DNA from: Georgenia muralis | Lineage (GTDB): Bacteria; Actinomycetota; Actinomycetes; Actinomycetales; Actinomycetaceae | NCBI RefSeq assembly: GCF_003814705.1 | Contig: NZ_RKRA01000001.1 | Coordinates: 1,922,001 to 1,986,000, forward strand | Length of the DNA stretch: 64,000 nt | Direction: 5' to 3' | The notes under the pieces: generated by a model | What the model saw: only the letters and a program-made list of their open reading frames with translations | Databases searched by the model: none | What the model was told of the DNA's origin: nothing | In this document: piece after piece, positions 40,840 to 63,834 of the stretch | Layout of the letters: every line of letters starts with the position of its first letter | How positions within the stretch are numbered: the stretch's first letter is position 1 | Translations under genes and position numbers: made by a program

Positions 40840-40859
40840 TATGGCACAAATATGGCACA
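40840..40859. promoter_or_regulatory. Left arm-type integrase sites
   Basis: Two TATGGCACA copies (40840-40848, 40851-40859), period 11 bp. An identical pair with the same spacing lies at the other end of the element (63591-63610). Confidence 0.6.
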
Positions 40860-40903
40860 GACTTCCGCGCCTTCGACGCCCGAATGTCGATCGCCGCGCT
40901 GGC

Positions 40904-40932
40904 TTGACAAGGGAACTTGCAACAAGTAATCT
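40904..40932 (+). promoter_or_regulatory. Consensus promoter giving a leaderless transcript
   Basis: TTGACA (40904-40909), exactly 17 bp, TAATCT (40927-40932). The next gene's GTG is at 40939, where transcription should begin, so the mRNA would have no leader. Two palindromes overlap the boxes: CTTGaCAAG (40903-40911) and ACTTGcaaCAAGT (40915-40927), likely operators. Confidence 0.75.
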
Positions 40933-40938
40933 TGCGAA

Positions 40939-41172
40939 GTGGAGTCCGAACCGATCATCCTCGCCACCGCCCACCGGCACGGTGTCTCGGATGCGGCGAT
41001 GCTCCATGCGCTCCGTTTCCCGGTCCGTCATTTCGTCCAGGACGACACGATGACCATGTTCATCGGCCCCGATGAGACCGGCATCCTCGTGGAAGTCGGC
41101 GTGATCGAGTGGCACGGTGTCATCGCAATTGCCCACGCCATACGCCCGGCCCGACCCAAGTATCTGAGGTGA
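40939..41172 (+). CDS. Small protein, possible toxin of a two-gene module
   Basis: 77 residues from GTG 40939. Conserved-looking features: ILATAHRHGVSDAAMLHALRFPVRHF, FIGPDETGILVEVGVIEW, and HAIRPARPKYLR at the end. The fold pattern (HARxHGVxxxDxxHAL ... PARxKYL) is that of a family of short actinobacterial proteins often paired with an antitoxin-like gene, resembling BrnT/RelE-sized toxins. I could not assign a catalytic site. It is directly followed by an HTH protein in the same operon, transcribed from a leaderless promoter. Confidence 0.6.
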   Translation: MESEPIILATAHRHGVSDAAMLHALRFPVRHFVQDDTMTMFIGPDETGILVEVGVIEWHGVIAIAHAIRPARPKYLR

Positions 41173-41177
41173 ACACC

Positions 41178-41450
41178 ATGGCTCGACGCTCCGTTGCAGA
41201 CATCAAGGCTCGTGCTGACGAGTTCGCCGACGCTTTCGAGAACTACGATCCCAAGCTCGGCGACCAGGATGCCCCTGTTCCGCCCGTGATGGCGGTCAAG
41301 CTCGCCGCCTGGCGGCGCGACGCCGCCGAACGCGAACTCGCCGACGCGGTGCGGGCGGCGCGTGATCAGCGGCTCTCCTGGCGTGAGGTCGGCGAGGCGA
41401 TCGGCACCAGCGGCGAGGCCGCCCGTCAACGCTACGGCACCAGCGCCTAA
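41178..41450 (+). CDS. HTH protein, possible antitoxin
   Basis: 90 residues from ATG 41178, with GAGGTGA 5 nt upstream that overlaps the previous stop. The N-terminal half is helical and acidic (ADEFADAFENYDPK); the C-terminal half has an HTH (AARDQRLSWREVGEAIGTSGEAARQRYG). Its position after a small basic protein and palindromic operators at the promoter fit an autoregulating toxin-antitoxin pair, but order (toxin first) and function are inferred. Confidence 0.6.
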   Translation: MARRSVADIKARADEFADAFENYDPKLGDQDAPVPPVMAVKLAAWRRDAAERELADAVRAARDQRLSWREVGEAIGTSGEAARQRYGTSA

Positions 41451-41542
41451 TGGCGATCGTGTGCATGGAGTGCGACGATCGGCCTCGTCGCCTGGTCGCC
41501 TGAGCAACAACGTTCTGAGAGTTCGCAGAGGAGTGTGTACAC

Positions 41543-41728
41543 ATGGGCACCGGTAATGACGACGGGCTTCCGTTCGGTATGCGATCGGGGATCAACCAGA
41601 ACGTGATGCAGCCGAGCTTTCGAGACGGACCTCAGCGGAAACCGAGGCGTCTGTGGCCGATTGCAGTGTCGATCCTGATAGCGCTCGCCACCATCGCGGC
41701 ACTGATCACCTGGAATGTCCTGCGGTAG
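41543..41728 (+). CDS. Small single-pass membrane protein
   Basis: 61 residues with AGAGGAG upstream of ATG 41543. A polar head (about 1-37, ending KPRR) precedes one helix, LWPIAVSILIALATIAALITW. It lies between the two-gene module and the relaxase. No family recognised. Confidence 0.55.
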   Translation: MGTGNDDGLPFGMRSGINQNVMQPSFRDGPQRKPRRLWPIAVSILIALATIAALITWNVLR

Positions 41729-41742
41729 AGCCCGAGCCCGTC

Positions 41743-44700: not shown

Positions 44701-45174
44701 GATCGCCACCGTCTGCAACTGCTCGACCGGCACGACCTCCTGGCGTCCCCGTGGGCCGACGCGGGTGACCGAGTGCTGCCCGAGCCAGGCGCGGATCATG
44801 TCCGCGGCGTCGCGCTGGGCGGCATCGAGCGCCGCCGACACCTCCGGGTGCAGCGCTGCGGCGATCGAGAGGGACTTCGGTGTGTTCACCACCATCTCCG
44901 CGAACCGTGGCGACCCCTGCCGATCAGCGCCGGCCTGGCGGGCCCGGCCCATCGGCTCCCGACTGACGGGGTCGACCCAGTCGACCCAGCCTGCGTACTC
45001 AGTCGGCGCCAGCGCTCGATGGACCATCACCCGGCCGCTGGCGTCGACCATGGACAGCTCGGCGCGGGCGGCGCCGGCCTCCAGGTAATACTCATCCGCC
45101 TGCGACCGGTCCGCTTCGAGGTAGCGACGCGCGGCAGTTCCAGTCCCTCGGAACAGGATCACCCCGCCGCGCAC
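41743..45174 (-). CDS. MobF-family conjugative relaxase with helicase domain
   Basis: 1143 residues from GTG 45174 (GGGAGG upstream); a TTG at 45207 is open but less likely. The TrwC relaxase domain starts VILFRGTGTAARRYLEADRSQADEYYLEAG with candidate nicking tyrosines at 18, 29 and 30, and the metal site HRHIHLQI has the three histidines H169, H171, H173. The helicase part has Walker A GAAGAGKTTM, VDEAGMLDQDTA (motif II), VGDRAQLPAVGRGG, and YGIQGITVDHSH (motif V/VI). The protein nicks at oriT and unwinds DNA during conjugal transfer. It is somewhat shorter than TraI but complete for this actinobacterial subfamily. Confidence 0.92.
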   Translation of the reverse strand: MRGGVILFRGTGTAARRYLEADRSQADEYYLEAGAARAELSMVDASGRVMVHRALAPTEYAGWVDWVDPVSREPMGRARQAGADRQGSPRFAEMVVNTPKSLSIAAALHPEVSAALDAAQRDAADMIRAWLGQHSVTRVGPRGRQEVVPVEQLQTVAISHRTSRAGDPHRHIHLQIGTRVWAAGAWRGLDTAALFRQQGAIRALGTAVLAAHPHLAAALDAHGLTLDPVSGEVVELEPFNAVLSKRATQVTRNLAAFTARWEAAHPGQAPDPVVRARLQAAAWEHHRPNKKPTRLGSEAGWRRELDAAGYSPDLPRHLPRPAVVAPDNLSVQQLANRALDRCAAAASTWTAHTVQEHVTRLITEAGVRATPQALVDLITITTRLALQDCLSVLPPGAAAPEHVPHLTNLHVIAVETHVRDLLAARSPAGASQPHITRMTEEPGLDPEQVWAAGAVASDAPLVVVEGAAGAGKTTMLGAAIRAAAAHGRATRIVTPTKKAAAVAARELDVPADSVAKLVHAHGWRWNTDGLWTRLAVGQPDPETGVTYHGPPPAARLRRGERIVVDEAGMLDQDTALGLLTIADEAGATLALVGDRAQLPAVGRGGVLDVAAHLVGSTYDMGTVHRFNDPTFADLTVQMRAGHHPAALFDRLHALRLVRIHESNDALHEAIARTARDGEAITTATNEEARDLNERIRDARVTAGLVDDSRTASGADGLPIGAGDLIQTRRNDHTLGVANRQTWTVQHIGDDGTAWVAEHRDGRRHERTLRLPAEYLTEHAHLAYATTAYGIQGITVDHSHTVLSDALDAAGVYVGMTRGRTHNLLHTVATDLDDARQQFTAALQRDPADRGLTDATRAARAAVSGLAPLGLAVVNAERARLRELVATADGEAARLERAMDALARQSVAHHTEHARQAQIVAAADTHLEAVRADVAAPLIEQAAADGAGYLTEQERMWQANRALAGSGRFGRRTSTRLAQEATQAHAAVRHAVSQRWGDTPLTTTHLPAWTNAAARRRVDADPRVIKAKKAADHAHLSEQELAMSHAAAFAALWQDIGCGRMPGPLEARATELRRHAHQARRSLAEIEALPVVDAEQLIRQNATRTMAERLAEAALKARTAHAGRRHSPSPTRRPDPGRNFTPSA

Positions 45175-45199
45175 GCCGCCTCCCTCGGGCCGCACGTGT

Positions 45200-45220
45200 A
45201 CTTGCAACTACCGAAGGTAG
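45200..45220. other. Possible oriT hairpin or regulatory site at the relaxase start
   Basis: ACTTGCAAC (45200-45208) is followed by the inverted repeat CTACCgaaGGTAG (45208-45220), just upstream of the chosen relaxase start. A short hairpin next to a MobF gene is a usual oriT place, but no nick site is proven. The ACTTGCAAC word also occurs in the operator at 40915. Confidence 0.4.
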
Positions 45221-48537: not shown

Positions 48538-48839
48538 AGCGGCGGCATCGAGCGGCCGCGGGCGACCTTCGGCTCGTCCTTGGCCCGGGCCGGCTTCACC
48601 GCCTGCGTCACCGGGGTGGTGTCGACCTCGATCAGGTCGTTGGGGGTGCACTCCAGCGCGGTGCAGAGCGCGGCAAGGGTGTCGAGCTTGACCTGGCTGG
48701 GCTGCTTGGCGAACAGGGCCGATACCGACGCCGAGGACAGCTCGAGGCCCGCGCGTTCGGCCAGGAGCCGGCGCAGCTGTGCCGCGGTCCAGACTTCCCG
48801 CTGGGCCGCGGCCATCCGCAGCCGCCACCTAATCTCCAT
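48534..48839 (-). CDS. XRE-type HTH protein of the recombinase cassette
   Basis: 101 residues. The HTH is WTAAQLRRLLAERAGLELSSASVSALFAKQPSQVKLDTLAALCTALECTPNDLIEV, the Cro/XRE fold. Its ATG overlaps the upstream recombinase by 11 bp and its stop overlaps the next start (TTGA), so all three are co-translated. Probably regulates the cassette or aids synapsis. Confidence 0.85.
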   Translation of the reverse strand: MEIRWRLRMAAAQREVWTAAQLRRLLAERAGLELSSASVSALFAKQPSQVKLDTLAALCTALECTPNDLIEVDTTPVTQAVKPARAKDEPKVARGRSMPPL

Positions 48840-49935
48840 CTCGCACTCCTCCCAGCTCGGCCAGCGTTCCCGAGACCGCCCGTCGGTAGGCGTCTTCGAT
48901 GAACGTGGCCGAGGGTGTCACGTACCGCATCGTCGTCCCCACGTGCCAGTGGCCGAGCATCTGCTGGATGGCGACGAGGTCGACCCCACGTTCGTAGTTG
49001 CGGGTCGCGCAGGCGTGGCGCAGCGTGTGTGGGCTGAACCCGACCAGGGGCGCCGCGCCTGGGCGGTCTTCGCCGCGGGCGGCCTGCTCGAGCACGAGCA
49101 GGTAGGCCAACCGGTTGCGGATGGTGCCCCGGCTGATCCGTCCGCCGCCCTCGTCACAGAACAGTGCCGGCCCCTCGCCCAGCCGAGGGGCGATCTCTTC
49201 CAAATACCACCTCAGGATGAGGTCGAGCCCGTCGAGCATGGGGACCCACCGGGGTCGGGGGCCGGAGGTCTTGGCTCCCTTGCCGAAGCGGACGTGAACC
49301 TTGCCGAACGGGCCGCGACCGAAGTGCACGTCTGCCCGATCGAGTGATGCGGTCTCCTCTGCCCGCAGCCCGGCGAGGTAGAGCGTGCGGAACAAGGCGT
49401 AGTCGCGTCCGGCGACCGCGTACTTACGCGCCCCGGCGATGCGCTGCTTGAGGAAGTCGAAGAACTCCTCCATCCGTTCATCATCGGGCGGGGCGATCGC
49501 CGACGGGGAGGAGGAGTCGACATGGCGTGCCGCGTTGAAGTCGTCGACCGGGTCGACCAGCCGGACACCGAAGACGGTTTCGATCTCGCCGGCCTTGCGG
49601 GCGGACAAGAACGCGTGGAATCCCTTGAACGCCTGGACATATCCCCGCCGCGTCGCAGCCGACAGGCCCTGCTCGACAAGCCCGGCAACGACCCGGTCGA
49701 CATCCTCGGCGGTGACTTCCCACGCGGGTCGGTCGCACGCGGTGAGGAAGCGGTCGAGCACCCCAGCGTTGTTCTCCATCGTGGTCTGAGCGAACCCTCG
49801 CACCGCCTGGGAAGTCTTGAACGCCTCCACACACGAGTCCTGGAACGCCACCGGGTCCGCCGCCGGCGCGTCGATGACCGCCGCGGGGCCGGCGCCGCCC
49901 TGAACCAGACGCAACCCGTCGACGGCCACGCACAC
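48829..49935 (-). CDS. Tyrosine recombinase (TnpA-like)
   Basis: 368 residues from GTG 49935 (AAGAAGG upstream). Full catalytic set: Arg in LYLAGLRAEETASLDRADVHF, HTLRHACATRNYERGVDL (H-x-x-R), GHWHVGTTMRYV (His/Trp and Tyr nucleophile). The N-terminal SAM-like DNA-binding domain is present. It probably catalyses movement of the three-gene element. The region just upstream (49936-50048) is AT-richer with repeated GGTACTT words, likely binding sites. Confidence 0.9.
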   Translation of the reverse strand: MCVAVDGLRLVQGGAGPAAVIDAPAADPVAFQDSCVEAFKTSQAVRGFAQTTMENNAGVLDRFLTACDRPAWEVTAEDVDRVVAGLVEQGLSAATRRGYVQAFKGFHAFLSARKAGEIETVFGVRLVDPVDDFNAARHVDSSSPSAIAPPDDERMEEFFDFLKQRIAGARKYAVAGRDYALFRTLYLAGLRAEETASLDRADVHFGRGPFGKVHVRFGKGAKTSGPRPRWVPMLDGLDLILRWYLEEIAPRLGEGPALFCDEGGGRISRGTIRNRLAYLLVLEQAARGEDRPGAAPLVGFSPHTLRHACATRNYERGVDLVAIQQMLGHWHVGTTMRYVTPSATFIEDAYRRAVSGTLAELGGVRDGD

Positions 49936-50557: not shown

Positions 50558-50848
50558 GTGGGATCAACCCGTCGCAGCTTTACCCCGGAGTACAAGGCCA
50601 ACGCTGTTAGTTTGGTCCTGAATGATGGCCGAGCGATCGCCGAGGTGGCGCGGAGCATCGGCGTCCATGAGATGACATTGGGGAAATGGGTGAAGAAGGC
50701 CCGGGACGAGGGGAAAGAGCCCGAGCGTCCGTTGAACGAGGACGAGCGGGCCGAGCTCGAGCGCCTGCGCGAGGAGAACAAGCGGCTGCGCATGGAGGCG
50801 GAGTTCGCAAAAAAAGTGGCGACCTGGTTCGCGAAAGACCAGCGGTGA
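50558..50848 (+). CDS. IS3-family OrfA (HTH) protein
   Basis: 96 residues: RRSFTPEYKANAVSLVLNDGRAIAEVARSIGVHEMTLGKWVKKA is the Orf A HTH, followed by a leucine-zipper coiled coil (ELERLREENKRLRMEAEF). A seven-A run at 50809-50815 (GCAAAAAAAG) is a candidate site for the -1 shift that fuses OrfA to OrfB. Confidence 0.9.
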   Translation: MGSTRRSFTPEYKANAVSLVLNDGRAIAEVARSIGVHEMTLGKWVKKARDEGKEPERPLNEDERAELERLREENKRLRMEAEFAKKVATWFAKDQR

Positions 50849-51729
50849 AGTTTGCTGCGATCGCGGACTGGGCTGACTCGAATGCGTTCCCGGTGTCGTT
50901 CATGTGCGACCAGCTCGGGGTGTCGACCTCGGGGTACTACAAGTGGCGCGGCAAGGCCCCCTCGGCCCGTGAGGTCGCCGACGCCGAGCTGATCGAGTTG
51001 ATCAAGCACCACTACGACCACCTCAACGGCCGGCCGGGGGTGCGGCGCCTGCGCGCCCACCTGGCGGCCGCCGGCCACAAGGTCTCCCACAAGCGGGTCT
51101 GGCGGCTGATGCGCGCCGCGGGCCTGAAGGGCCGCCATCCCAAGGCCTGGAAGCGCACCACGGTGCCCGGCGAGAACCCCGTGGGCGCCCCGGACCTGAT
51201 CGGCCGGGATTTCACCGCCGCCGAGCCGAACACCCGCTGGTGCGGGGACATCACCTACGTGCGCACCTGGGACGGGTGGGCCTACCTGGCCACCGTCATC
51301 GACTTGCACTCGCGCATGGTCATCGGCTGGGCCCTCGCGGACCACATGCGCACCGAGCTGGTCACCGATGCCCTGGAGATGGCCATCGCTCACCGCCGCC
51401 CACCCAAGGGGGTGATCTTTCACAGCGACCGCGGCACGCAATACACGTCCAAGGATTTCGACAAATTCTGCCGGCGTCACCATGTCCGCCGCTCGCTGGG
51501 CCGGACCGGTATCTGCTATGACAATGCCGTCGCGGAATCATTCTTCGCGACCTACAAGAAGGAACTTATCCACACCCGCCCCTGGCCGGCCATCACTGAC
51601 CTGAAGAAGGCCACGTTCACCTGGATCGAGGAGTACTACAACCGCGCCCGACGCCACTCCACCCTCGGGTATTTGACACCAGCAGAGTATGAACTAGGAT
51701 TACGACACATCAACGAACTCGCGGCGTAA
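50845..51729 (+). CDS. IS3-family OrfB transposase
   Basis: 294 residues from GTG 50845, overlapping OrfA by 4 bp. The DDE triad is seen in WCGDITYVRT, FHSDRGTQYTS and AVAESFFATYKKEL, and the ending YNRARRHSTLGYLTPAEYE is typical. In IS3 elements the active form is usually the fused OrfAB. Confidence 0.92.
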   Translation: MKFAAIADWADSNAFPVSFMCDQLGVSTSGYYKWRGKAPSAREVADAELIELIKHHYDHLNGRPGVRRLRAHLAAAGHKVSHKRVWRLMRAAGLKGRHPKAWKRTTVPGENPVGAPDLIGRDFTAAEPNTRWCGDITYVRTWDGWAYLATVIDLHSRMVIGWALADHMRTELVTDALEMAIAHRRPPKGVIFHSDRGTQYTSKDFDKFCRRHHVRRSLGRTGICYDNAVAESFFATYKKELIHTRPWPAITDLKKATFTWIEEYYNRARRHSTLGYLTPAEYELGLRHINELAA

Positions 51730-51756
51730 TTCCCCGAGTCCACTTTTTCGGGAACA

Positions 51757-52127
51757 CTCCAAACCGACGAACCGACCCGATACGCTTCACCTTGGAAGTG
51801 CCCTCTCGCGGGACTACTTGGAACCTCAACAAGCCCAAGTTTTCCGCACCAGACGGGCACTTCCGTCTATCTACCGGCCCGTGTCGCCACCCCCGCGTGA
51901 AACGCCGAGGCTAAGCCTCGATCCGTAAGTTCTTGGGTGGCCCGGGAGGGCTGGGTGTGGCTGAGCCTTGATCGCCCGTTGATGGCTCCGATGGATTGGC
52001 CGCCCGGTTCCTCCTGGGGCGCCTTGACTGCTGATTGAGATGCGCGTCCTGGTCGCTGTTTACGGATCTGTCGGCGGGGTGTTCCTTCGGGCCATGGCAA
52101 TCGCTCGTGTGCTCGAAGGAGGAGTTG
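51757..52127 (+). ncRNA. Non-coding end of the IS110 element, candidate bridge RNA region
   Basis: The 371 bp between the IS3 right end and the IS110 ATG (AAGGAGGAG upstream) hold no reading frame that looks real. IS110-group elements encode a bridge RNA in the non-coding end upstream of the transposase, and this stretch (mainly 51880-52100) contains GC-rich self-complementary blocks such as ggtggcccgggagggctggg and ggccgcccggttcctcctgg. The RNA itself is not shown; the call is by position. Confidence 0.35.
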
Positions 52128-52862
52128 ATGAAGCAACGGATCGCGCTCGGGTGGGCTGGTGTCGACGTCGGTAAGGGTCATCACTGGATCTGCCTGATCG
52201 ACGAGGCCGGCACCACAGTCTGGTCGACGAAGGTGGTCAACGACGAGGCCGCCATCCTCGACGCGATCGCCGGCGTCCTTGGCCACGCCGACGAGGTCGT
52301 CTGGGGAGTAGACGTCACCGGGACCATGTCGGGACTGCTGCTGGCACTGCTGGCAGCCCACGGTCAGCGGGTGAGATACGTCCCCGGCCGCACGGTGAAC
52401 CAGATGGCCAGCGCCTACCGCGGTGAGGCCAAGACCGACGCCCGCGATGCCTACGTCATCGCCGAGACCCTTCGACACCGCGGCGATCTACAGGACGTCG
52501 AGGTCGCCACCGCGCTGGTGACCGAGCTGCGGCTACTGGTGACCCACCGCACCGACCTGGTCGGTGACCGGGTCCGCGTGGTCAACCGGCTCCGCGACGT
52601 GCTCAGCGGCTACTTCCCTGCGCTGGAGCGGTCCTTCGACTACGCCCATAGCCGGGGTGCGTTGGTCCTGCTGACGGGCTACCAGACGCCGCAGGCGATC
52701 CGCCGGACGGGTGAGTCGCGGTTGCGGGCATGGCTGGTCAAGCGGAAGGTGCGCAGCGCCGACCAGATCGCTGCAGCTGCGCTCGGTGCGGCCAAGGCCC
52801 AGCAGACCGTCGTGCCCGGGCAGGATGTGGCGGCCAGCATCGTGGCCGACCTCGCCGCTCAG

Positions 52863-54493
52863 CCCTGATCCACCGGTGTGGTGAGCGTGGCGTAGAACGA
52901 GAATGCCCTTCTGGGCAGGAAAGATCTGGATTACGACGTCTAGATCCGACCACCCGGAAGGGCATCTCGTAAGTGAAACCCTCTCACACGATTCGACCGG
53001 TCTTCGATGAGTCCAATCTGGTGTCGGCGGCGGGTCTGGTCCCGGCCCTGCGGCTGGCGGAGTCCGCGGGTTTGTACGGCCTGGTCGAGGGGTTGACGGT
53101 GCCCTCACCCAACGCGGGGGTGAAGACGGCGAGTGTGGTCGGCGGGATGCTCGCCGGTGCGGACTCCATCGATGACCTGGACCTGTTGCGCCATGGCGGG
53201 ATGGGCCGGGTCTTCGACGGGGTCCGGGCACCCTCGACGTTGGGCACGTTCCTGCGATCGTTCACCCACGGTCACGTCCAGCAGCTCGACAAGGTCAGCG
53301 GTGCGCTGCTGGCAGGGCTCGCTCGACAGGTTCCCGCCCTGGTGAACAGCGGCGCGAGGGCGCAGGGCATCGCGTTCGTCGATGTCGACGACACGATCCG
53401 GGAGGTCCACGGCTACGCCAAGCAGGCCGCGGCGTACGGCTACTCCGGGGTCCGGGGCCTGAACGTCCAGCTCGCCACTCTCTCCACGGAGGTGGCGGCG
53501 CCGGTGATCGTCCGGGCCCGGCTACGGCGCGGCAACGTCGCCTCGCACACCGGCGCCGGCCAGCTCCTCGCCCAGGCCCTGGGGACCGCCCGCGCCGCGG
53601 GCGTGAGCGGACCGGTGCTGTGCCGGGCGGACTCGGCGTACTACGGCCACGCCTTCGTCGCCACCGCCCTGCGCCACGGGGTGTGGTTCTCGGTGACCGT
53701 GCGGATGAACCCCCAGGCCAAGGCGGCCATCGCGGGCATCGGCGAGGACGCCTGGACCCCGATCAGGTACCCGCACGCGGTCTGGGACGAGGCCGAGCAG
53801 CGGTGGGTCTCCGACGCCGAGGTCGCCGAGGTCCCCTTCGTCGCGTTCACCTCCCGCCGCAAGGCCGAGCAGGTGACCTGCCGACTGATCGTGCGCCGCG
53901 TCCGACGGCTCCAGCCCCTGGCCGGTGACGGCAGCGAGCAGGGCGAGCTCTTCGCGACCTACCGCCACCACGCGTTCATCACCAACTCCGACCTGGACAC
54001 CATCGAGGCCGACCAGCGTCACCGGGGGCACGCGATCGTCGAGCAGGTCATCGCCGAGCTCAAGGACGGGCCCCTGGCGCACCTGCCGTCCGGGAAGTAC
54101 GCGGCGAACGCGGCCTGGGTGGCGATGGCGACGATCGCGTTCAACATCGCCCGCGCCGCCGCCGTCGCCGCCGACATGGCCACCGCCCGGTGGGCCACCC
54201 TGCGCCGGAAGATCATCAACGTCCCCGCCCGGATCGCCACCACCGGCCGCCGGCTGATCCTGCACCTGCCCGCCCGCTGGGCCTGGGCCGAGCACTGGAC
54301 CACCCTCCACACCGCCGCGACCGGGCCACCACCAGCCACCACGACCTGACCACCCAGCCCCCACGGGCACGACCCAAGGAACCCAAGAGTGGAAGAGCCG
54401 GCACAGACCGGCGGCCCCACCACGCCCACAAACCCCGCCATCCCCAGCACGCCGCCCGAACAACGACCACCCGGCAGAATCGGTGGATCAGGG
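52863..54493 (+). mobile_element. IS1380-family element B, intact (1631 bp)
   Basis: Ends CCCTGATCCACCG are perfect inverted repeats (52863 and, inverted, 54493). CTCAG is duplicated on both sides (52858-52862, 54494-54498). Inserted in the IS110 gene. Confidence 0.93.
52973..54349 (+). CDS. IS1380-family transposase B
   Basis: 458 residues, full length for the family. Landmarks: SVVGGMLAGADSIDDLDLLRHGGM, FVDVDDTIREVHGYAKQAA (catalytic aspartate), RADSAYYGHAFVATAL (second), and the C-terminal ELKDGPLAHLPSGKYAANAAWVAMATIAFNIARA (third). It differs strongly from element A. Start ATG/GTG near 52973. Confidence 0.92.
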   Translation: MKPSHTIRPVFDESNLVSAAGLVPALRLAESAGLYGLVEGLTVPSPNAGVKTASVVGGMLAGADSIDDLDLLRHGGMGRVFDGVRAPSTLGTFLRSFTHGHVQQLDKVSGALLAGLARQVPALVNSGARAQGIAFVDVDDTIREVHGYAKQAAAYGYSGVRGLNVQLATLSTEVAAPVIVRARLRRGNVASHTGAGQLLAQALGTARAAGVSGPVLCRADSAYYGHAFVATALRHGVWFSVTVRMNPQAKAAIAGIGEDAWTPIRYPHAVWDEAEQRWVSDAEVAEVPFVAFTSRRKAEQVTCRLIVRRVRRLQPLAGDGSEQGELFATYRHHAFITNSDLDTIEADQRHRGHAIVEQVIAELKDGPLAHLPSGKYAANAAWVAMATIAFNIARAAAVAADMATARWATLRRKIINVPARIATTGRRLILHLPARWAWAEHWTTLHTAATGPPPATTT

Positions 54494-54978
54494 CTCAGCT
54501 CCTGGCGCTCGGCGCGCGGATCTCCGACCTCGACGCCCGGATCACCACCACCTTCCGCGCGCACCCCCAGGCCGAGATCATCGAGTCCCTGCCCGGCATG
54601 GGACCGATCCTCGGTGCCGAGCTGGTAGCCGCCGCAGGGGACCTTGCCGCCTATGCGAACGCCGGACGGCTCGCCTCGGCCGCCGGGCTTGTCCCGGTCC
54701 CGCGGGACTCTGGCCGGCGCACCGGGAACCTGCACCGGCCGATGCGCTACTCGCGCAAGCTGCGCAGAGTGTTCTACCTCTCCGCCTCAGCCGCCATGAT
54801 GCGCGAGGGCCCCAACCGCGACTACTACCTCAAGAAGCGCGGACAAGGCCACGGGCACGTCCAAGCGCTCATCGCCTTGGCGCGCCGACGCGTCGACGTC
54901 CTATGGGCCCTGCTCCGCGACAACCGACCCTTCGAACTCGCCCCACCCTCGCGAGAACCGATGGCCCAAACGGCTTGA

Positions 54979-55271
54979 CAAAGTCATTGAGAATCCACCG
55001 ATGGCCCGCGGCTCGCTCCTTGATGCTGGTCGGGACACGGCGGTGGTGGTTCTCGGGCGTGAGGTGGTTGCCGGTCTGCCCGGCTTTTCCACTGATGATG
55101 GGAACCCGAGGTTGTAGAGCTCGGACCAGGTCTTGCGCGACCCGTCGGGCGGCGAGCACACGCGTATCTTTGCAGCCCTTCCTAGTCCCTGGGTTCCGCA
55201 GCTGAGGTGAGTGCTAGGTGGCCGGTTGTGGGGTCTGACCTGCGGGTTTGGATGGTTGAGCGGTGACATGG
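54979..55271. other. No gene: right end of IS110 and spacer
   Basis: 293 bp between the IS110 stop and the IS1634 direct repeat. Reading frames there show no recognised family; the left part probably includes the IS110 right end. Confidence 0.5.
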
Positions 55272-57101
55272 CGTGTCACTAGGGGGCGGCCTCGTCGGGG
55301 TGGGCCCTGGTGGGCTCAGGGCGTGGTCAGGTCCAGGATCCGTGGGGGTGTGGGGACCTGGAGGGCGGTGAGGATCTGCCGCTGGGCGGTGGTGGGGGTG
55401 GTGGTCTGGCGGTAGGTGCCGGCCGGGCCGGTGAACTGCCCGAGGTGCAGGCGCTGCATCTCGGCGCGGACGCCTGTCCAGGTCTGGGTGGTGGTGGTCT
55501 CGATGATGCGGATCAGGAGTAGGGCGAGCCAGCACAGGATGACGTGGGCGCGGATGCGGTCCTCGAGGCGGTGGTGGACCGGGCGCAGGTTGAGGATCTG
55601 CTTCATGTCGCGCCAGCCGCGCTCGACCTCGAGGAGCTGCTTGTAGCCCAGGGCGAGGTCCTCGGCGGACAGGGTGGGCTCGTTGGTGCGTAGCAGGTAC
55701 TTCCCGTCCAGCTTGGCCTCGGCGATGATCGCGGCCCGGTCGACCCGCAGCAGCCCGCCGGCGCTCACGCGCAGGTAGCGGTTCAGGCCCGGTTTGGTCG
55801 AGATGGCCCCGCGCAGCTGCGCGCGCTTGGTCACGGAGAGTTTGTCGGTGCCGGCGATCATCTCCTGAAGGCGGGCGACCAGCTCGGCGCGGATCGCGGC
55901 GTCACGGACGGCCTGGTCGGGGTTGTGGGCGATGACGAACCGGTCCCCGTCGCCCAGGCGGACCTCCTTGACGCGCAGGTTGCCGGTGACCTCCTGGTAC
56001 CGGCCCTGGCGGGACAGGGCTGCGGTGGCCTCGGCCGACCCGGAGCGCAGCTTCTCGCCCAGGATGTACCCGCCGCCGGCGCGTTGGAGGTAGCGGCGGT
56101 TCTCCGCTGAGGTGAACCCGCGGTCGGCGACCCAGACGACCTTGCCGAGGTTCCACTGGGCCATGTCGTCCTTGACCTGGCGGATCAGCGCCGAGTCGGC
56201 GGTGTAGCCCGGCCAGGACCACACCCGCACCGGGATCCCGGTGCGGGTCACGGCCATCCCGATGACGACCTGGGGCAGGTCCTCGCGGTGGTCCTTGGAC
56301 TTGCCGTACGTGCGGAACCCCGTCGCCTTCACCGCCCCCGCCGGCGCCGTCTCCGCGCCGGCGTCCTCGTCCAGGCGCTGGCCGGTCTGGTCGCGCCACA
56401 CCGGTTCGTCGGCGCTCTCGGTCTCGAAGTAGATGGAGGTGGTGTCGAAGAAGAGCAGGTCGACCTCGAGGTTGAGCAGGTCCGCGACGTTGTCGTACAC
56501 CGTCTTGGCCAGGGTGTCCTCGACCGAGAGCAGCCAGTCCATGGCCCGGTAGCACGCGTCGTCGGAAACCTCGGGCAGGCCGGGGATGTGGACGTCGGCC
56601 CCGACCCAGGACGCGGCGGCGAGCTTGGAGGACGGCGCCAGCGCCCGGTTGGCCACCAGCGCGAAGCACACCCGCTCCGTCACGGGCTCCCGCCGCCCGC
56701 CCGCGAGCAGCTTCCCCATCGCCTTGCCGATGCCGAGCTGGGACCACAGGTGGTCCAGCACCCACGCCCCGCCCAGCGGCCGGGAGGACTCGAACGCCAG
56801 CCCGGCCGGCCCGTCACCACCCTGCGCCGCGACCGGGTCGGGGTCCAAGGTCTTGGTCAACGAGGCGATCAGCCGCTCGATCGCGGCCCGGTCGACCTGG
56901 TCGGTGCGGCCGAAGTTGTACAGCACCCGCATCTTCGCCGACTTCGTGCCCGGGTCCCACTCGTTGTGCGCGAGCTGGAGGTAGCGCACCACCGAGCCGT
57001 CCTTGTTCCGCCGCGACGACGTCCGCATGAACATGTCACCACAGTAGCGGCCGATTGGCGCACGCGTGTTGCTCGACACGCCCAATTCGTGTCACTAGGG
57101 G
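55272..57101 (-). mobile_element. IS1634-family element with 14-bp flanking repeats
   Basis: The word CGTGTCACTAGGGG is present in direct orientation at 55272-55285 and 57088-57101, enclosing the transposase. IS1634 elements make unusually long or variable target duplications, so this may be one; no convincing terminal inverted repeat was found just inside. Confidence 0.6.
55316..57034 (-). CDS. IS1634-family transposase
   Basis: 572 residues from ATG 57034 (frame open to 57085). MFMRTSSRRNKDGSVVRYLQL opening, LLFFDTTSIYFE (first catalytic Asp), VVWVADRGFTSAENRRYL (second) and LEVERGWRDMKQILNLRPVHHR (Glu) are the IS1634/IS4-group landmarks. Complete. Confidence 0.93.
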   Translation of the reverse strand: MFMRTSSRRNKDGSVVRYLQLAHNEWDPGTKSAKMRVLYNFGRTDQVDRAAIERLIASLTKTLDPDPVAAQGGDGPAGLAFESSRPLGGAWVLDHLWSQLGIGKAMGKLLAGGRREPVTERVCFALVANRALAPSSKLAAASWVGADVHIPGLPEVSDDACYRAMDWLLSVEDTLAKTVYDNVADLLNLEVDLLFFDTTSIYFETESADEPVWRDQTGQRLDEDAGAETAPAGAVKATGFRTYGKSKDHREDLPQVVIGMAVTRTGIPVRVWSWPGYTADSALIRQVKDDMAQWNLGKVVWVADRGFTSAENRRYLQRAGGGYILGEKLRSGSAEATAALSRQGRYQEVTGNLRVKEVRLGDGDRFVIAHNPDQAVRDAAIRAELVARLQEMIAGTDKLSVTKRAQLRGAISTKPGLNRYLRVSAGGLLRVDRAAIIAEAKLDGKYLLRTNEPTLSAEDLALGYKQLLEVERGWRDMKQILNLRPVHHRLEDRIRAHVILCWLALLLIRIIETTTTQTWTGVRAEMQRLHLGQFTGPAGTYRQTTTPTTAQRQILTALQVPTPPRILDLTTP

Positions 57102-57194: not shown

Positions 57195-58532
57195 TCACGG
57201 TCGCTCAAAGCCGTGCGTTGAGGCGTACATGTCCAACTTCGAGGAAAGATTGAATTTCGTTGCCGGGCACGGCGGGTTGCCCTCGGCCCACGCTTTCGGA
57301 CATGAACCGCCGCACACGGGAAGAATGGCGCACGTTGCGCAAGAGTAGTTCCCTGACGAGATCTCGTCGTTCCAGGTCTCATACAGTCCAGCCGGTCGCC
57401 TACCAATCCGCAGGCTGCTCACGTTTCCGACGGCCGTGTTCTCGTACCCTGGAACCAAGGGTTGCTCCGTGCAGGAGAACACTTCACCGCTTGATGTGAT
57501 TACCTCAGCACTCGTCTGCATAGCGATGCAGACAATCTTCTTCCGCTGCGTCGGAACCAGCGACGGGCAATTTAGTCCCGCATCCCGATAGGCTTGCAGC
57601 CACTCGAGTTCCACGTTTCCGTATGCCGTCTTGCCCAGTTCCAATGCACTTATGTCGTTACCCCATGAGTGAATCGGGGCGGCATAGAACGAAACCTTGT
57701 CGTGCCCGAGGCCTCTCTCAGCCATGGTCCTGGCGAACTCTGCCGCCTCACCTCGGTTAGCAGGTGAGACATTGGTCCTGATGCTGATCCGGAGGTCTTC
57801 GTACTGCGGCTGGCGAACTGCCCAGGAGAGGAAGTTCACGATGTGGTCAAGGCTTTCACCACCTGCCTTCTTGGGGCGGAGCAGGTCGTGCGACGTTCCG
57901 TCCAGCGTGATTTCAAAGAATGACACGCGGCAGTCGTGGTAAAGCGTGTCCAACTGACGAGCGTCGAGGAGCACCCCATTAGTTACCATCTGCGACCAGT
58001 AGGAGAGCCCTCTATCGCCTGCTAGGGGCACGATCTGCCGGGCGATGTCCCTGATGTTGGCGTAGCCCATCAACGGTTCCCCGCCGAACCAGTTCAGAGC
58101 AATCCCGTCATAGCAGCCAGACTCGATCTCCCCAATGATTCTGCGCACCAGGCCTGAGCGGTGAGATCCCCGTAATGTCGCCTTGGTATGCGCCTGGCCA
58201 CAGTAAGAACACCCGAGGTTGCAATACGACGTCGGCATTATGACGAACGTCCTCGTCCGGTTCTCCGCGATGGCTCTTCGGTTCTCCTCGAGTATCACCT
58301 CGAGCTCGTCTACCGAGTCCGGAATTACGGCGCCCGCGTCAATGAGGTCCTCGAGCACATCGGGGCGTATCTTGCGCTCAAAACCGCTTTCGTCATTCAG
58401 TGCTTCTGCCGTGTCCTTGTCGATCATGTACAGTCGGCCGGTCGTCGCGAGATATGCGGGACGAAGGGCGACGCCTTGCGCACTTGTAAAGTCGGTTTCC
58501 GAGATTGTCAAGTATCTGCTTACGGTGAGCAC
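57195..58532 (-). CDS. Radical SAM/SPASM peptide-maturase (RiPP enzyme)
   Basis: 445 residues from GTG 58532, with GAAGGAG 9 nt upstream. The first ~95 residues resemble a PqqD-like recognition region (RPAYLATTGRLYMIDKDTAEALN). The radical SAM cluster motif CX3CX2C is at C104, C108, C111 (TSYCNLGCSYCG); GGEPL follows. The SPASM domain has Cx13Gx4C (IVCIAMQ...GEVFSC) and Cx2Cx5Cx3C (CATCAILPVCGGSC) plus a final Cys, the pattern for two auxiliary iron-sulfur clusters. Such enzymes install thioether, C-C or epimerised links in ribosomal peptides. A 26-residue peptide gene lies 118 bp upstream in the same direction, separated by a hairpin. The gene is clearly lower in GC than the backbone. Confidence 0.93.
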   Translation of the reverse strand: MLTVSRYLTISETDFTSAQGVALRPAYLATTGRLYMIDKDTAEALNDESGFERKIRPDVLEDLIDAGAVIPDSVDELEVILEENRRAIAENRTRTFVIMPTSYCNLGCSYCGQAHTKATLRGSHRSGLVRRIIGEIESGCYDGIALNWFGGEPLMGYANIRDIARQIVPLAGDRGLSYWSQMVTNGVLLDARQLDTLYHDCRVSFFEITLDGTSHDLLRPKKAGGESLDHIVNFLSWAVRQPQYEDLRISIRTNVSPANRGEAAEFARTMAERGLGHDKVSFYAAPIHSWGNDISALELGKTAYGNVELEWLQAYRDAGLNCPSLVPTQRKKIVCIAMQTSAEVITSSGEVFSCTEQPLVPGYENTAVGNVSSLRIGRRPAGLYETWNDEISSGNYSCATCAILPVCGGSCPKAWAEGNPPCPATKFNLSSKLDMYASTHGFERP

Positions 58533-58587
58533 CTGGATCGACTCCTTCGTCGTTGCAGTCGGTGTGAGTTCCCGTTGGACGGGGCGA

Positions 58588-58626
58588 CCGGTGGGGGTCG
58601 TCGATTCTTGTGGCGACCCCCACCGG
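58588..58626 (-). terminator. Hairpin between peptide gene and radical SAM gene
   Basis: Perfect 13-bp arms ccggtgggggtcg (58588-58600) and complement (58614-58626), loop 13 nt. It lies 24 bp after the peptide stop. It may act as a partial terminator giving more peptide than enzyme, or it may protect the short upstream mRNA. Confidence 0.7.
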
Positions 58627-58649
58627 ATAGGACGTTGTTGCGCGGTCGG

Positions 58650-58730
58650 CTACATGCAGCCCAGGTTCATGCAGTCGCCGTTGCCGGAGCGTTCGGCCTC
58701 CGCGGTCTCCGCTGTGATGTCGATCAGCAT
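58650..58730 (-). CDS. Putative RiPP precursor peptide, 26 residues
   Basis: ATG 58730 is preceded by AAGGAGGTGA, a perfect ribosome site, 7 nt before the start. The peptide opens MLIDITAETAEAERSG and closes NGDCMNLGCM. A short acidic leader (about 1-14) precedes a likely core (about 15-26) with two Cys-Met pairs spaced CMNLGCM. An acidic leader and a small Cys-containing core next to a SPASM radical SAM enzyme are typical of RiPP precursors. The core contains an Asn with a Cys three residues on (N-L-G-C), the spacing known from NxxC-type radical SAM thioether peptides. The product is unknown. It is shorter than the usual gene-finder limit. Confidence 0.75.
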   Translation of the reverse strand: MLIDITAETAEAERSGNGDCMNLGCM

Positions 58731-58737
58731 CGTTATC

Positions 58738-60024
58738 TCACCTCCTTCCCTGAAACGATTCGGTGTGGTGGTCGGGGCGGCCAGTGTGCTGAGCGATATC
58801 TCGAAGGAGGGGTCGGGCCAAGACCGCGATCATTGCCATGCCGATTCCTGCGACAAGCCACGGGAGGCGGCCGTCAACGCGCGCGAGGAGGCCTGACGCC
58901 AGGGTTCCTATGGGGCTGGCTATGGCCACGAAGGTGAAGATGACGCCCGACACTCGCCCCAGCAGGCGCCGAGGGACCAGGCGTTGGCGCGCGGTCGCCA
59001 CAAGAACGTTCCACCACGCGGCTAACACAGCCATGCTCGCAGACAGACTCGCGAAAATGATCCATCCAGTTGCGTTCGGCGGAACAACGCTCGCGCCGGC
59101 AAGGGCGAAGCCTTGGCCGAGGAGGACTACGGACATGATGGGGAACGTGCCGAACCGCGCGGTGACTTTGCTGACTGTGGTGGCTCCGGCTATGGCACCG
59201 AGCGCAGGGGGCACCGCTAGAACTCCCACGAGAGCTTCGGGTACGTCCAGCACCTGGACGAGGTAGTAGATGTAGGTTCCTTGCGCGAGCGCGAAAATCC
59301 CGATGACCAAGGGGCTGACCAGAGCCAGGCGCCGCAGGGTGCGAGACTGATGCAGATATGACAGCCCTTCCTGCGTCCGTTGCCAGAGTGTGAAGGGATT
59401 GTGATCATCGGTCGCGCCGGGCGGACCGCTCTGGTGCCGCGGAACGGCCCGGAAGATCATGGCCACGCCGAACAGAAGCAGTGCCATGGAGATGCCGGTG
59501 GGCAAGGGTGCGAACATGGCGAGCGAAATGGTCCCAACCGGAGCCGCTATGAAGCCCTGGGTCACCTGCTGCCCGGTCACGATTCGACCGTTCGCCCGCT
59601 CAAGGTCGCCGGAATCAACGAGGTCGGGAACGGTCGTTGTCGTCGCGGTGTCGTGGATGCCCTCGAACGCTGCGAACCCGAGTGCGGCCACGATGATCAT
59701 CCATAGCGCGAGGCTGTCCTGCCAGATCGCGACACCCAGACACGCGAGGAGCCCCGCGCGAATGATGTTGGATGCGGCCATGAGACCGCGCCTCGAGGAG
59801 GTGTCGACGATCGTGCCTACAACGATCGACAGCAGGACGGCTGGAACGTAAGCGGCGATCCTTGCTGCCGACACCGCTAAGGGGTCCGTAGTTATGCGCA
59901 GGACAAGGAGAGGAAGAATCACCATGACAATGCCGTCCGCAGCATTGGAGGAGATCGTCGCAGCCAGCAGCTGACGAAACCGGCGGCCCAGTGAGCGACC
60001 AGTCTTGGCGTTGATGGTAGACAT
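58738..60024 (-). CDS. MFS exporter of the peptide cluster
   Basis: 428 residues, about 12 membrane helices, of the MFS_3/EntS-like type: AADGIVMVILPLLVLRITTDPLAVS, VGTIVDTSSRRGLMAASN (motif A-like) and TTTTVPDLVDSGDLERANGR. It overlaps the regulator's stop (ATGA) and its stop is 7 bp before the peptide ATG, inside the peptide's ribosome site. Probably exports the mature peptide or protects the producer; substrate not shown. Confidence 0.85.
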   Translation of the reverse strand: MSTINAKTGRSLGRRFRQLLAATISSNAADGIVMVILPLLVLRITTDPLAVSAARIAAYVPAVLLSIVVGTIVDTSSRRGLMAASNIIRAGLLACLGVAIWQDSLALWMIIVAALGFAAFEGIHDTATTTTVPDLVDSGDLERANGRIVTGQQVTQGFIAAPVGTISLAMFAPLPTGISMALLLFGVAMIFRAVPRHQSGPPGATDDHNPFTLWQRTQEGLSYLHQSRTLRRLALVSPLVIGIFALAQGTYIYYLVQVLDVPEALVGVLAVPPALGAIAGATTVSKVTARFGTFPIMSVVLLGQGFALAGASVVPPNATGWIIFASLSASMAVLAAWWNVLVATARQRLVPRRLLGRVSGVIFTFVAIASPIGTLASGLLARVDGRLPWLVAGIGMAMIAVLARPLLRDIAQHTGRPDHHTESFQGRR

Positions 60025-60641
60025 CAGGAGCCTCTCACATCGTCACGCCCGTCGTCGCGGCTGGCGCTTTGCGGGGCAAGGGCCACCGGAAAGGCGCGGA
60101 ACTGGACGTCGACCACGCGAGTATCCGACTCAGCTCCCTTGACCAAGTCCCGGCGGGTGATCCAGCGAGCCATGAGTTCTTGCATTTCCTGGGTGAAGAC
60201 GCGTAGTTCCTCTGACGTCATGCGCATCATCGCGTTGACGTCTACGGGGCCCTTACGCCATTCCTCAGGCTCCTCGCCGCGCGCGACGCGGTCCTGAAAC
60301 TCAGCAGCAGAACGGAACCTTAGATCCAGCCAGGCATGGCGGTACTCACGGCCTCCAGTCGCTCCCATGGACTCAAGGTCTGACCAGCCGTAGTTCCGGG
60401 CCGCAAACGGTGAAAACCAGACGCGGTCTCTGCCCGTTCCGTGGTCCCTCAGATCGATGATGAGGCCTGCCTTTTCAAGCTCACGCAGGTGGTAACTCGT
60501 TGTGCCGGATGTGACACCTAGTCGACGAGCCAGCTCGGTGGCTGTCGATGGGGCCTGAGCCAGCAGATCAACCATCTGACTGCGTAGCGGATGGCTCATA
60601 GCTCGCAGTTTTCGTGCTCCATCTGCCGCTTCCCGACGCAC
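60024..60641 (-). CDS. ArsR-like winged-helix regulator of the peptide cluster
   Basis: 205 residues from GTG 60641 (GAGGAGGG upstream). RKLRAMSHPLRSQMVDLLAQAPSTATELARRLGVTSGTTSYHLRELEKAGLI is the ArsR/HTH_20 fold. No metal-binding cysteines are seen, so it probably responds to another ligand or to the peptide. The long C-terminal half has no known domain. Confidence 0.85.
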   Translation of the reverse strand: MRREAADGARKLRAMSHPLRSQMVDLLAQAPSTATELARRLGVTSGTTSYHLRELEKAGLIIDLRDHGTGRDRVWFSPFAARNYGWSDLESMGATGGREYRHAWLDLRFRSAAEFQDRVARGEEPEEWRKGPVDVNAMMRMTSEELRVFTQEMQELMARWITRRDLVKGAESDTRVVDVQFRAFPVALAPQSASRDDGRDDVRGS

Positions 60642-62180: not shown

Positions 62181-62268
62181 GACGTGAACGGAGGTGCTTC
62201 AATGTCAGGTATTGGCACGAACGTTAGTTGCTGGCGAAGTTGACCTGGACTCGATGAGAGGAACCGGC

Positions 62269-62463
62269 ATGACCGAGGCGACGAAGACGGACTACCTCAC
62301 GCGCGCCGAGGCGGCTGCCCGATGCCGGGTGCCAGTGCCGACGTTCGACAAGCTGCGCCGCGAGGGTCTGATCCCCGAACCCGATGCGGAGGTCGGCAAG
62401 CACAAGCTCTGGCGTGCGGACACGATCGCCGAGTTCCTCGATGTCGGCGGGACGAGACGCTGA
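62269..62463 (+). CDS. Excisionase-like HTH protein
   Basis: 64 residues from ATG 62269 with AGAGGA 7 nt upstream. DYLTRAEAAARCRVPVPTFDKLRREGLIPEPD is a MerR-type HTH of the AlpA/Xis class, and its stop overlaps the integrase start (TGATG). It likely directs excision of the element. Confidence 0.85.
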   Translation: MTEATKTDYLTRAEAAARCRVPVPTFDKLRREGLIPEPDAEVGKHKLWRADTIAEFLDVGGTRR

Positions 62464-63635
62464 TGGCCGGCCGGCCGGCGAAGGACTCCCCGCTCCGGCT
62501 CGACCCGCGCACCGGTAGGCCGCTGCCCGAGGGCATCCGCTGGCGCGAAGATCGGCAGCGCTACCAGATTCGCGTGCTGGTGCCTGACCTCTATGGCAAC
62601 TGGGCCGAGCGCGCACGCACGTTCCGCACGCTGGGCGAGGCGAAGAAGGAGCTCGCCAACGCCGTCGCCGGGAAGAACCCGAACGGCGCGATGACGCTCA
62701 CCCAGTGGCACGAGCGGCACTGGCCGGCGATCGGGGCATCGGTGCGACCGGGCACTGCGCGCGCCTACGCCGTCGCGTGGCGCCGACGGGTGCAGCCGAC
62801 GCTCGGGCACCTGAAGCTCGAAGCGATCACCTCACCGCTGATCGAGACGGCGATGGCCGGGTGGGACTGCTCACCCTCGACCAAGGTCGACTCGCTCGCC
62901 CTCATCAGCCGCCTGCTCGACGCCGCGCGCCGGGCGCGGATCATCGACTACAACCCGGCGCGCGAGATCAGGCGCCCGACGCAGGACGCCTCGACCTCTC
63001 CCACCTCCCGGGCGCTGACCATGCCGCAGGTGACGACGATGCTCGAGCTGATCCCGGCCGGCGTCTATCGGCGCTACGCAGCCGCCCTCGTGTACACCGG
63101 CATGCGGGCGGGTGAGGCGACCGCCATCCGGGTGCGCGACGTCGACCTCACGCAGGGCGTGTTGCGCGTCAGCCGCAGCTTCTCGCCCGGCCTGAACGGC
63201 GAGCTCATCGAGCAGAGCCCGAAGAGCCACAAGGAACGACAGGTGCCGATCGTCCAGGCGTTCCTCCCGTTCGTGGACAAGGCCATGAAGGGCAAGGGGC
63301 CTGACGACCTGCTGTTCTCCGGGCCGAACGGCGGCCGGCTCGTCGCGGCGAACTTCCGCCGTGCGGTGAACTGGGCGACGATCAGGACGGCGCTCGACCG
63401 CCCCGACCTGCGCGTGCACGATCTGCGCCACACGTTCGCCACCATCCTGTTCGACGCCGGCGCCTCCGCACCCGACGTGCAGGCGGTGCTCGGGCACTCC
63501 AGCCTGCAGGTCACCGAGCGCTACTCCCGTGCACGCGAGGGCGTCGCCCGGCGCGCGGGTGCGGTGTTCGACCGCGTCACCACCGGCGGATATGGCACAG
63601 ATATGGCACAGCGCCGTGCGGGGCCGGGTCTGTGA
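62463..63635 (+). CDS. int: Tyrosine-type site-specific integrase
   Basis: 390 residues from ATG 62463, overlapping xis. An AP2-like N-terminus (GIRWREDRQRYQIRVLVPDLYG), a SAM-like core-binding domain, and the catalytic domain with R215 (YTGMRAGEA), H319-R322 (VHDLRHTFA), H345 (GHSSLQV) and Y354 (ERYSRA). It recombines attP with the tRNA-Phe site. The end of the coding region contains the right arm-type sites (YGTDMAQ codons). Confidence 0.95.
   Translation: MAGRPAKDSPLRLDPRTGRPLPEGIRWREDRQRYQIRVLVPDLYGNWAERARTFRTLGEAKKELANAVAGKNPNGAMTLTQWHERHWPAIGASVRPGTARAYAVAWRRRVQPTLGHLKLEAITSPLIETAMAGWDCSPSTKVDSLALISRLLDAARRARIIDYNPAREIRRPTQDASTSPTSRALTMPQVTTMLELIPAGVYRRYAAALVYTGMRAGEATAIRVRDVDLTQGVLRVSRSFSPGLNGELIEQSPKSHKERQVPIVQAFLPFVDKAMKGKGPDDLLFSGPNGGRLVAANFRRAVNWATIRTALDRPDLRVHDLRHTFATILFDAGASAPDVQAVLGHSSLQVTERYSRAREGVARRAGAVFDRVTTGGYGTDMAQRRAGPGL
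63591..63610. promoter_or_regulatory. Right arm-type integrase sites
   Basis: Two TATGGCACA copies (63591-63599, 63602-63610), period 11 bp, inside the 3' end of int. Same words and spacing as the left end (40840-40859). Confidence 0.6.
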
Positions 63636-63726
63636 GCGCCGTCAGCGCCTCGGTGCCGAGGCCCCGGGACCCGTAGGGCCACCCTAGAAAGGGTGTCTGA
63701 CCAGGGAGAACGGCTGGCGGAACGAC

Positions 63727-63756
63727 GAAGGCCCCGCACTCACGTGCGGGGCCTTC
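63727..63756 (-). terminator. Hairpin carried by the element, now the tRNA-Phe terminator
   Basis: 13-bp arms (63727-63739 and 63744-63756), loop tcac, 3 bp inside the right att repeat on the element side. After integration it lies just downstream of tRNA-Phe and replaces the displaced chromosomal terminator at 40651-40688. Confidence 0.8.
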
Positions 63757-63759
63757 TGC

Positions 63760-63804
63760 GGTGGCTCCGACCGGCGTCGATCCGGTGACCTTTCGATTTT
63801 CAGT
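63760..63804. other. attR (tRNA-Phe 3' part)
   Basis: 45 bp identical to attL, here part of the intact tRNA-Phe gene, from 2 bp beyond its 3' end to the anticodon loop. Confidence 0.93.
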
Positions 63805-63834
63805 CGAACGCTCTACCAACTGAGCTACAGAGCC
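63762..63834 (-). tRNA. tRNA-Phe (GAA)
   Basis: 73 nt on the minus strand: acceptor ggctctg/cggagcc, T-arm ggtcggagc region with gatcgac, D-arm, and anticodon loop ctGAAaa. CCA is not encoded. Integration target of the element. Confidence 0.93.

Follow-up and report, generated by a model that had tools for sequence, protein, structure and literature searches.

A 26-codon open reading frame (ORF) ahead of a radical SAM/SPASM enzyme gene in Georgenia muralis raises two questions: is it the precursor gene of a ribosomally synthesized and post-translationally modified peptide (RiPP), and what does the enzyme make of it? The locus occupies positions 57195-60641 of the minus strand in a 64,000-nt window (contig NZ_RKRA01000001.1); the window is the whole stretch of DNA analysed, and all coordinates are positions in it. 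An earlier annotation made from the DNA letters (hereafter the original prediction) had proposed a compact RiPP cluster on a mobilizable element. Our favoured reading, to which we give a probability of roughly 70%, is a minimal RiPP cassette on a mobilizable element, whose enzyme joins each Cys of the peptide to the Asn three residues before it (Asn(-3)) to form two four-residue thioether rings. We regard as established the genes themselves, the recurrent pairing of a peptide with the enzyme, the Asn(-3)-Cys motif, the conserved Fe-S cysteines, the hairpin, and the carrier element.

The cassette and its 26-codon gene

Transcription on the minus strand runs from a 205-aa regulator through a 428-aa MFS transporter, the 26-codon ORF, and a 117-nt spacer to a 445-aa radical SAM protein. 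The features of the cassette are as follows.

57195-58532, minus strand: radical SAM/SPASM enzyme, proposed thioether-forming maturase (445 aa; Pfam Radical_SAM, 45 bits; SPASM model TIGR04085)
58588-58626, minus strand: hairpin between the peptide and enzyme genes, perfect 13-bp stem
58650-58730, minus strand: 26-codon precursor peptide gene, peptide MLIDITAETAEAERSGNGDCMNLGCM
58653-58682, minus strand: predicted core with putative limits (residues 17-26): NGDCM-NLGCM, made up of two N-x-x-C units
58738-58747, minus strand: ribosome site AAGGAGGTGA, 7 nt upstream of the ATG of the peptide gene; overlaps the stop codon of the MFS gene
58738-60024, minus strand: MFS transporter, proposed exporter (428 aa; Pfam MFS_1, MFS_3)
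60024-60641, minus strand: ArsR/HTH_20-type regulator (205 aa; Pfam HTH_20, HTH_5)

Pfam matches back the assignments of the regulator, the transporter, and the enzyme. All the parts named in the original prediction (ArsR-like regulator, MFS transporter, 26-residue peptide with its ribosome site, hairpin, and SPASM enzyme) were present, close together on the minus strand. As it had also stated, no dedicated protease was recognised among the four genes (Pfam).

The third-position G+C content (GC3) of the 26-codon ORF was 0.93, compared with 0.65-0.74 in the neighbouring genes. In the peptide, Cys20 and Cys25 each have Asn at -3, giving N-x-x-C at residues 17-20 and 22-25, and the tail NGDCM-NLGCM is a tandem of N-x-x-C-M. 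When the window peptide was permuted 200,000 times, Asn stood at -3 of both Cys in 545 permutations, and the tandem N-x-x-C-M arose in none. Six other actinobacterial precursors of the upstream-ORF count described below have two N-x-x-C, all overlapping (NNNCLC, NNICC); among those precursors, only that of the window has the two units spaced as a tandem. The original prediction had taken GDCMNLGCM as the core. The tail as core stands, but residues 17-26 (NGDCMNLGCM) describe its limits better, with Asn17 as the probable first residue.

Small peptides upstream of related enzymes

Relatives of the enzyme were found by tblastn against plasmids and by a scan of 84,980 species genomes. The locus set comprised the best 80 of 391 confirmed loci, picked by conserved enzyme patterns. 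Many of the Streptomyces loci are closely related; hence, the rows of the counts below are not independent. Identity to the window enzyme was up to 46%, and at most 35% in 25 loci on viral contigs. In a tree from a quick search, built without loci L006, L007, and L078, eight Micromonosporaceae enzymes formed the sister group of the window enzyme (SH-aLRT 85), which sits on a long end branch.

For the upstream-ORF test, same-strand ORFs of 12-110 codons with the stop within -450 to +45 of the enzyme start were scored for a C-terminal (N/D)-x-x-C plus at most 6 residues, with same-size windows in the same loci as controls. Such an ORF was present upstream of the enzyme in 35 of the 42 actinobacterial loci and in 34 of 1602 control windows. 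With the stricter N-x-x-C plus at most 1 residue, the counts were 27/42 and 8/1602. A profile made from leaders only (four seeds from counted relatives, core cut off) detected 29 ORFs in 22 loci, and all enzyme-proximal ones (24/24) end in N-x-x-C. Seven of the eight sister-clade peptides carry N-x-G-C plus 0-4 residues, comparable to NLGC in the window. The RiPP cluster with a 26-residue precursor is thus supported by upstream small peptides that share a C-terminal motif. The original prediction had named homologs without a similar upstream peptide as the finding that should speak against it; on checking, peptides were present in relatives. The part expected to be conserved, CMNLGCM-like tails, proved to be wrongly chosen: the string CMNLGCM was in no precursor of the upstream-ORF list and was rejected, and the shared part is N-x-x-C.

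The motif recurs outside Actinomycetota. In ORFs with GG leaders upstream of non-actinobacterial relatives (22 loci; some spurious-looking ORFs, all kept), Asn stood at -3 of 38 of the 86 Cys, compared with 5, 9, 14, 7, 8, 6, 6, and 11 at -1, -2, -4, -5, -6, -7, -8, and -9, respectively. Across phyla, an Asn three residues before Cys is thus a mark of the peptides that are the putative substrates of this branch of enzymes.

Three further observations concern the peptides. Five leader-profile ORFs lie 3.3-3.5 kb downstream of the enzyme start (L018, L031, L032, L036, and L076); they have an aroma-sacti-like leader (see below) and end without Cys, e.g., VQGQELKVL, and may represent an additional precursor or a partner protein. 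In L042, L044, and L045, a wider look made without controls found small ORFs ending LDINFGC, VNVGCCG, and LDVNFGC at 3.6-6.3 kb from the enzyme; these also contain VEGH, and two are on the opposite strand. In the Bacteroidota loci L052, L058, and L060, peptides with a GG leader and a run of several N-x-x-C repeats lie near the enzyme relatives and are possible multi-ring substrates.

The spacer between peptide and enzyme gene also has counterparts. None of 60 dinucleotide shuffles of the window spacer reached its 13-bp stem; the folding energy of the full 128-nt stretch stands out less (z -2.26; 3/200 shuffles equally good). Among spacers of at least 45 nt (six loci with shorter spacers excluded), a perfect stem of ≥9 bp occurred in 22 of 30 from actinobacterial relatives, as well as in those of the window and L004; when all 39 tested spacers were shuffled, such a stem arose in 61 of 2340 cases. 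The stem sequences vary between groups; hence, it is the structure, not the sequence, that recurs. The hairpin is probably a transcript attenuator or stabiliser, and attenuation or protection may keep peptide mRNA more abundant than enzyme mRNA.

These data bear on whether the 26-codon ORF could be a chance reading frame beside an enzyme with another substrate. Family models fail to detect the peptide (NCBIfam gave no match at E ≤ 1), and residues 1-16, outside the tail, are unlike any other precursor found, as a chance frame might be. Against this stand its ribosome site and GC3, and a position, motif, and hairpin like those in the relatives; we rejected a chance frame on the upstream-ORF counts, the hairpin, and the permutation test, regarding it as hardly credible.

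The enzyme and the predicted thioether links

The SPASM domain model TIGR04085 (NCBIfam) matched the enzyme at 35.7 bits (cut-off 27). The CxxxCxxC cysteines (104, 108, and 111) and the SPASM cysteines (335, 354, 398, 401, 407, 411, and 422) are invariant in 47 aligned relatives. Among the 25 models shown of 55 NCBIfam models matched, no maturase model reached its cut-off. The two best are radical SAM/SPASM maturases, TIGR04463 (176 bits; cut-off 525) and CefB (NF038107; 115.6 bits; cut-off 600), and the enzyme falls far outside both. The window Cys, spaced five apart, recall the Cys-every-fifth pattern of CefB, which may be a coincidence.

The AlphaFold2 model of the enzyme had a mean predicted local distance difference test (pLDDT) score of 95.4. 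The best solved-structure matches in Foldseek were CteB (5why and 5wgg; top) and TigE (8vpo), with TM-scores of ~0.6-0.7 and root-mean-square deviations (rmsd) of 6-9 Å. With CteB and the SCIFF ranthipeptide synthases the enzyme shares the overall fold and the SPASM cysteines; it differs from CteB in sequence (~15% identity) and by the same 6-9 Å. CteB has a RiPP recognition element (RRE), and residues 1-90 of the window enzyme, judged within the whole AlphaFold2 model, form strands and then helices, RRE-like in look. The predicted Asn-Cys product also departs from that of CteB, in which Cys is linked to Thr according to a passage of PMC11002830.

The closest precedent for the motif is streptococcal. 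In passages of PMC8326336, PMC13361665, and PMC11002830, NxxcB of Streptococcus orisratti is described as joining Cys23 to the beta carbon of Asn20 in NxxcA; the NxxC peptides that appear in the passages of the reviews PMC8326336 and PMC13361665 are streptococcal. As described there, the streptococcal NxxC radical SAM RiPPs share with the window a short precursor beside a radical SAM/SPASM enzyme and N-x-x-C in a C-terminal core. The window peptide has two N-x-x-C units, whereas NxxcA has one, and its crosslink is predicted. The window regulator is of the HTH_20/ArsR type and accompanied by an MFS transporter, instead of Rgg/SHP, with no search made for SHP peptides. We do not claim membership in the NxxC ranthipeptides because the Rgg feature is absent, the crosslink is predicted, and NxxcB was compared by description only; by analogy, the window cassette would work like them.

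A second group of peptides resembles the window in other respects. The peptide domain of relatives has already been named by NCBI as aroma-sacti (NF045560), and its peptides in Streptomyces and relatives have a homologous enzyme, a C-terminal N-x-x-C, a hairpin, and a nearby MFS gene. They are ~60-68 residues long with a conserved helical-looking leader, which the window peptide lacks. With a cut-off of 30 bits, NF045560 scored 70 and 50.8 for two relatives' peptides; the window peptide gave no match and lies outside the family. A search of open-licence papers on 'aroma-sacti' and on TIGR04463 found no paper.

The name bears on a different geometry for the same cassette, with thioethers to the alpha carbon, as in sactipeptides, or to residues other than Asn(-3), the Asn serving only in recognition or ring geometry. 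Alpha links are known from SPASM enzymes, including one in a four-residue ring (streptosactin, Cys31-Gly34, according to a review passage), and besides carrying the aroma-sacti name, the peptides of Streptomyces relatives gave weak StsA-related sactipeptide scores (25.7 and 15.9; cut-off 75). However, Asn at -3 is the one feature common to unrelated leaders, and the only N-x-x-C precedent found, as described in the passages cited above, is a beta link to that very Asn. We consider this geometry unlikely. A carbon-carbon link, epimerisation, or a single link plus a disulfide in place of two Asn-Cys thioethers seems quite improbable to us. Related SPASM families do carry out many reactions, and low-scoring cyclophane-forming models are among the NCBIfam matches of the enzyme; the conserved substrate pair, however, is Asn and Cys, and the best structural match, CteB, is a thioether enzyme.

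For the favoured reading, we infer the following steps, which cover the crosslink with its partners and carbon, the removal of the leader, export, and regulation. The 26-residue peptide would be translated from its own strong ribosome site, with the intergenic hairpin holding its mRNA above that of the enzyme. Binding of the first ~16 residues probably falls to the N-terminal RRE-like region of the enzyme. A 5'-deoxyadenosyl radical and auxiliary Fe-S clusters would then be used for Cys-Asn joining. From the NxxcB precedent, the predicted links are Asn17-Cys20 and Asn22-Cys25, which would give two side-by-side four-residue thioether rings and a mass shift of -4 Da; each bond would most likely run from sulfur to the beta carbon, as in NxxcA. 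A host peptidase may cut off the leader, the MFS protein may export the small product and protect the producer, and the ArsR-like protein may regulate the operon.

Neighbouring genes and the carrier element

The original prediction regarded the gene layout as unlike known ones; this did not hold. The same four genes occur in L030, L035, and L040, where the ArsR and MFS genes are transcribed divergently from those of the enzyme and a peptide of 22-32 residues. Streptomyces relatives, moreover, commonly have an MFS gene close to the enzyme and an N-x-x-C peptide. L038 has the MFS gene, a 22-residue peptide, and the enzyme, with no intact ArsR-like ORF. In a profile search of 43 actinobacterial loci, MFS was found in 32, an ArsR-like gene in 11, and both in 3; the other 41 loci of the neighbourhood search include L071 and the plasmid loci L005-L007. 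Neither profile matched any of 40 control windows of other actinobacterial DNA. The ArsR profile was built from 9 proteins (eight in counted loci) and the MFS profile from 5 (four in counted loci). All eight sister Micromonosporaceae loci have an ArsR-like gene upstream. The first gene past the enzyme was on the opposite strand in 9 of 12 sister and short-peptide loci (crude gene calls).

Two neighbourhoods are noted separately. At L004 (4747-9532), on the linear plasmid of Streptomyces sp. NBC_01281, the peptide (33 residues, with the tail LDLNGNC) and the enzyme are followed directly by a class I methyltransferase, a SagB/ThcOx dehydrogenase, and an MFS transporter, which makes the locus a more decorated version of the cassette. 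In L030 and L035, a serine-recombinase-like protein (GYARVST..., by eye) lies beside the cassette, at approximately -2.9 to -2.3 kb relative to the enzyme, a hint of additional mobile carriers.

Besides the unlike first 16 residues, several points weigh against the favoured reading. The cassette is known here from its genes and its product is predicted, and the NxxC likeness is drawn from published descriptions, not from the NxxcB enzyme sequence. Seven of the 42 actinobacterial loci have no motif-bearing ORF beside the enzyme: L027 (contig edge), L039, L041, L042, L044, L045, and L050. The C-terminal test was weak in the 38 other loci (8/38 vs 114/1415 controls), mostly Bacteroidota and Pseudomonadota plus L071, an Actinomycetaceae metagenome-assembled genome whose peptide ends DLNIVC. 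The peptide of L023, the eighth sister-clade locus, has D-G-G-C, with Asp in place of Asn, and in L064 and L069, Asn is at -4 rather than -3. As for the neighbours, the MFS profile matched in none of the eight nearest relatives' loci, the ArsR-like gene is found in only the 11 of 43 loci given above, and profiles made without the window proteins scored the window MFS at E 1.4e-8 and the regulator at E 1.1e-11, mostly over the HTH part.

The missing MFS in the eight nearest relatives and the weak similarity of the window MFS and regulator to those of other cassettes would also fit an independent efflux pair lying by chance ahead of a peptide-enzyme unit. We hold this to be doubtful: the peptide ribosome site overlaps the MFS stop codon, the same pair accompanies L030, L035, and L040, and the profile matches (32 for MFS and 11 for ArsR of 43 loci vs 0/40 controls) point the same way, with some seeds in the counted loci.

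The favoured reading also places the cassette on a mobilizable element, as first proposed. The features of the element are as follows.

40692-40736: left attachment (att) repeat, 45 bp, identical to the 3' part of tRNA-Phe
41743-45207, minus strand: TrwC-type relaxase-helicase (Pfam TrwC, 129 bits; AAA_30)
48829-49935, minus strand: second tyrosine recombinase within the element (domain scan)
62194-62463, plus strand: small helix-turn-helix (HTH) protein, possible excisionase (Pfam HTH_17, 23.9 bits, under the cut-off of 27)
62322-63635, plus strand: tyrosine integrase adjoining the tRNA (Pfam Phage_integrase; true start may be further in)
63760-63804: right att repeat, 45 bp, within tRNA-Phe (63760-63834, minus strand)

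The direct repeat is perfect over its 45 bp. In a same-genus genome (G006), both flanks join at a single intact tRNA-Phe, that is, an empty site; the element ends (window 40737-42236 and 62301-63759) gave no match in the 5-kb stretch of G006. From the att repeats, the integrase, the relaxase, and the empty site, the cassette sits in a 23-kb integrative mobilizable element. Several transposase genes also lie between the att repeats; IS3-like, IS110-like, DDE_Tnp_1_4, and DDE_Tnp_1 genes are crowded just left of the cassette (50558-57085). A 589-aa ORF (19210-20979) was considered as a second copy of the transposase at 55316-57085 and rejected, the ungapped nucleotide identity of 35% marking the two as unrelated.

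The G+C content was 0.611 in the cassette and 0.581 in the enzyme gene, compared with 0.744 in the part of the window to the left of the element. A search of the other 8 same-genus genomes gave no match to the enzyme (E ≤ 1e-20), and of 213 genomes in the family, 2 have it, one of them the genome that carries the window (E ≤ 1e-50); in 296 genomes of the phylum, the sole match at E ≤ 1e-40 was the window's own enzyme. Such sporadic occurrence in genus and family is as expected of transferred DNA.

The odd 26-codon ORF now gives a clear, cheap prediction, namely a link between Cys and the Asn at -3. So short a precursor can be synthesised, the enzyme family has dozens of aligned members, and small RiPP genes, often overlooked in annotation, can be searched for by the pairing of motif and enzyme. 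More broadly, and with the chances about evenly balanced, Asn(-3)-Cys may be the substrate code of a SPASM maturase branch spanning Actinomycetota and Bacteroidota, and N-x-x-C thioether peptides a broad class. Its smallest actinobacterial form would be a mobile four-gene cassette with a precursor of ~22-32 residues, and the window would hold a two-ring version (N-x-x-C-M twice) with no protease or ABC exporter in the cassette. If this is true, N-x-x-C thioether chemistry would extend well past streptococci, and transferred minimal cassettes of a regulator, an exporter, a peptide, and a single enzyme would offer a compact way of reaching new cyclic peptides.

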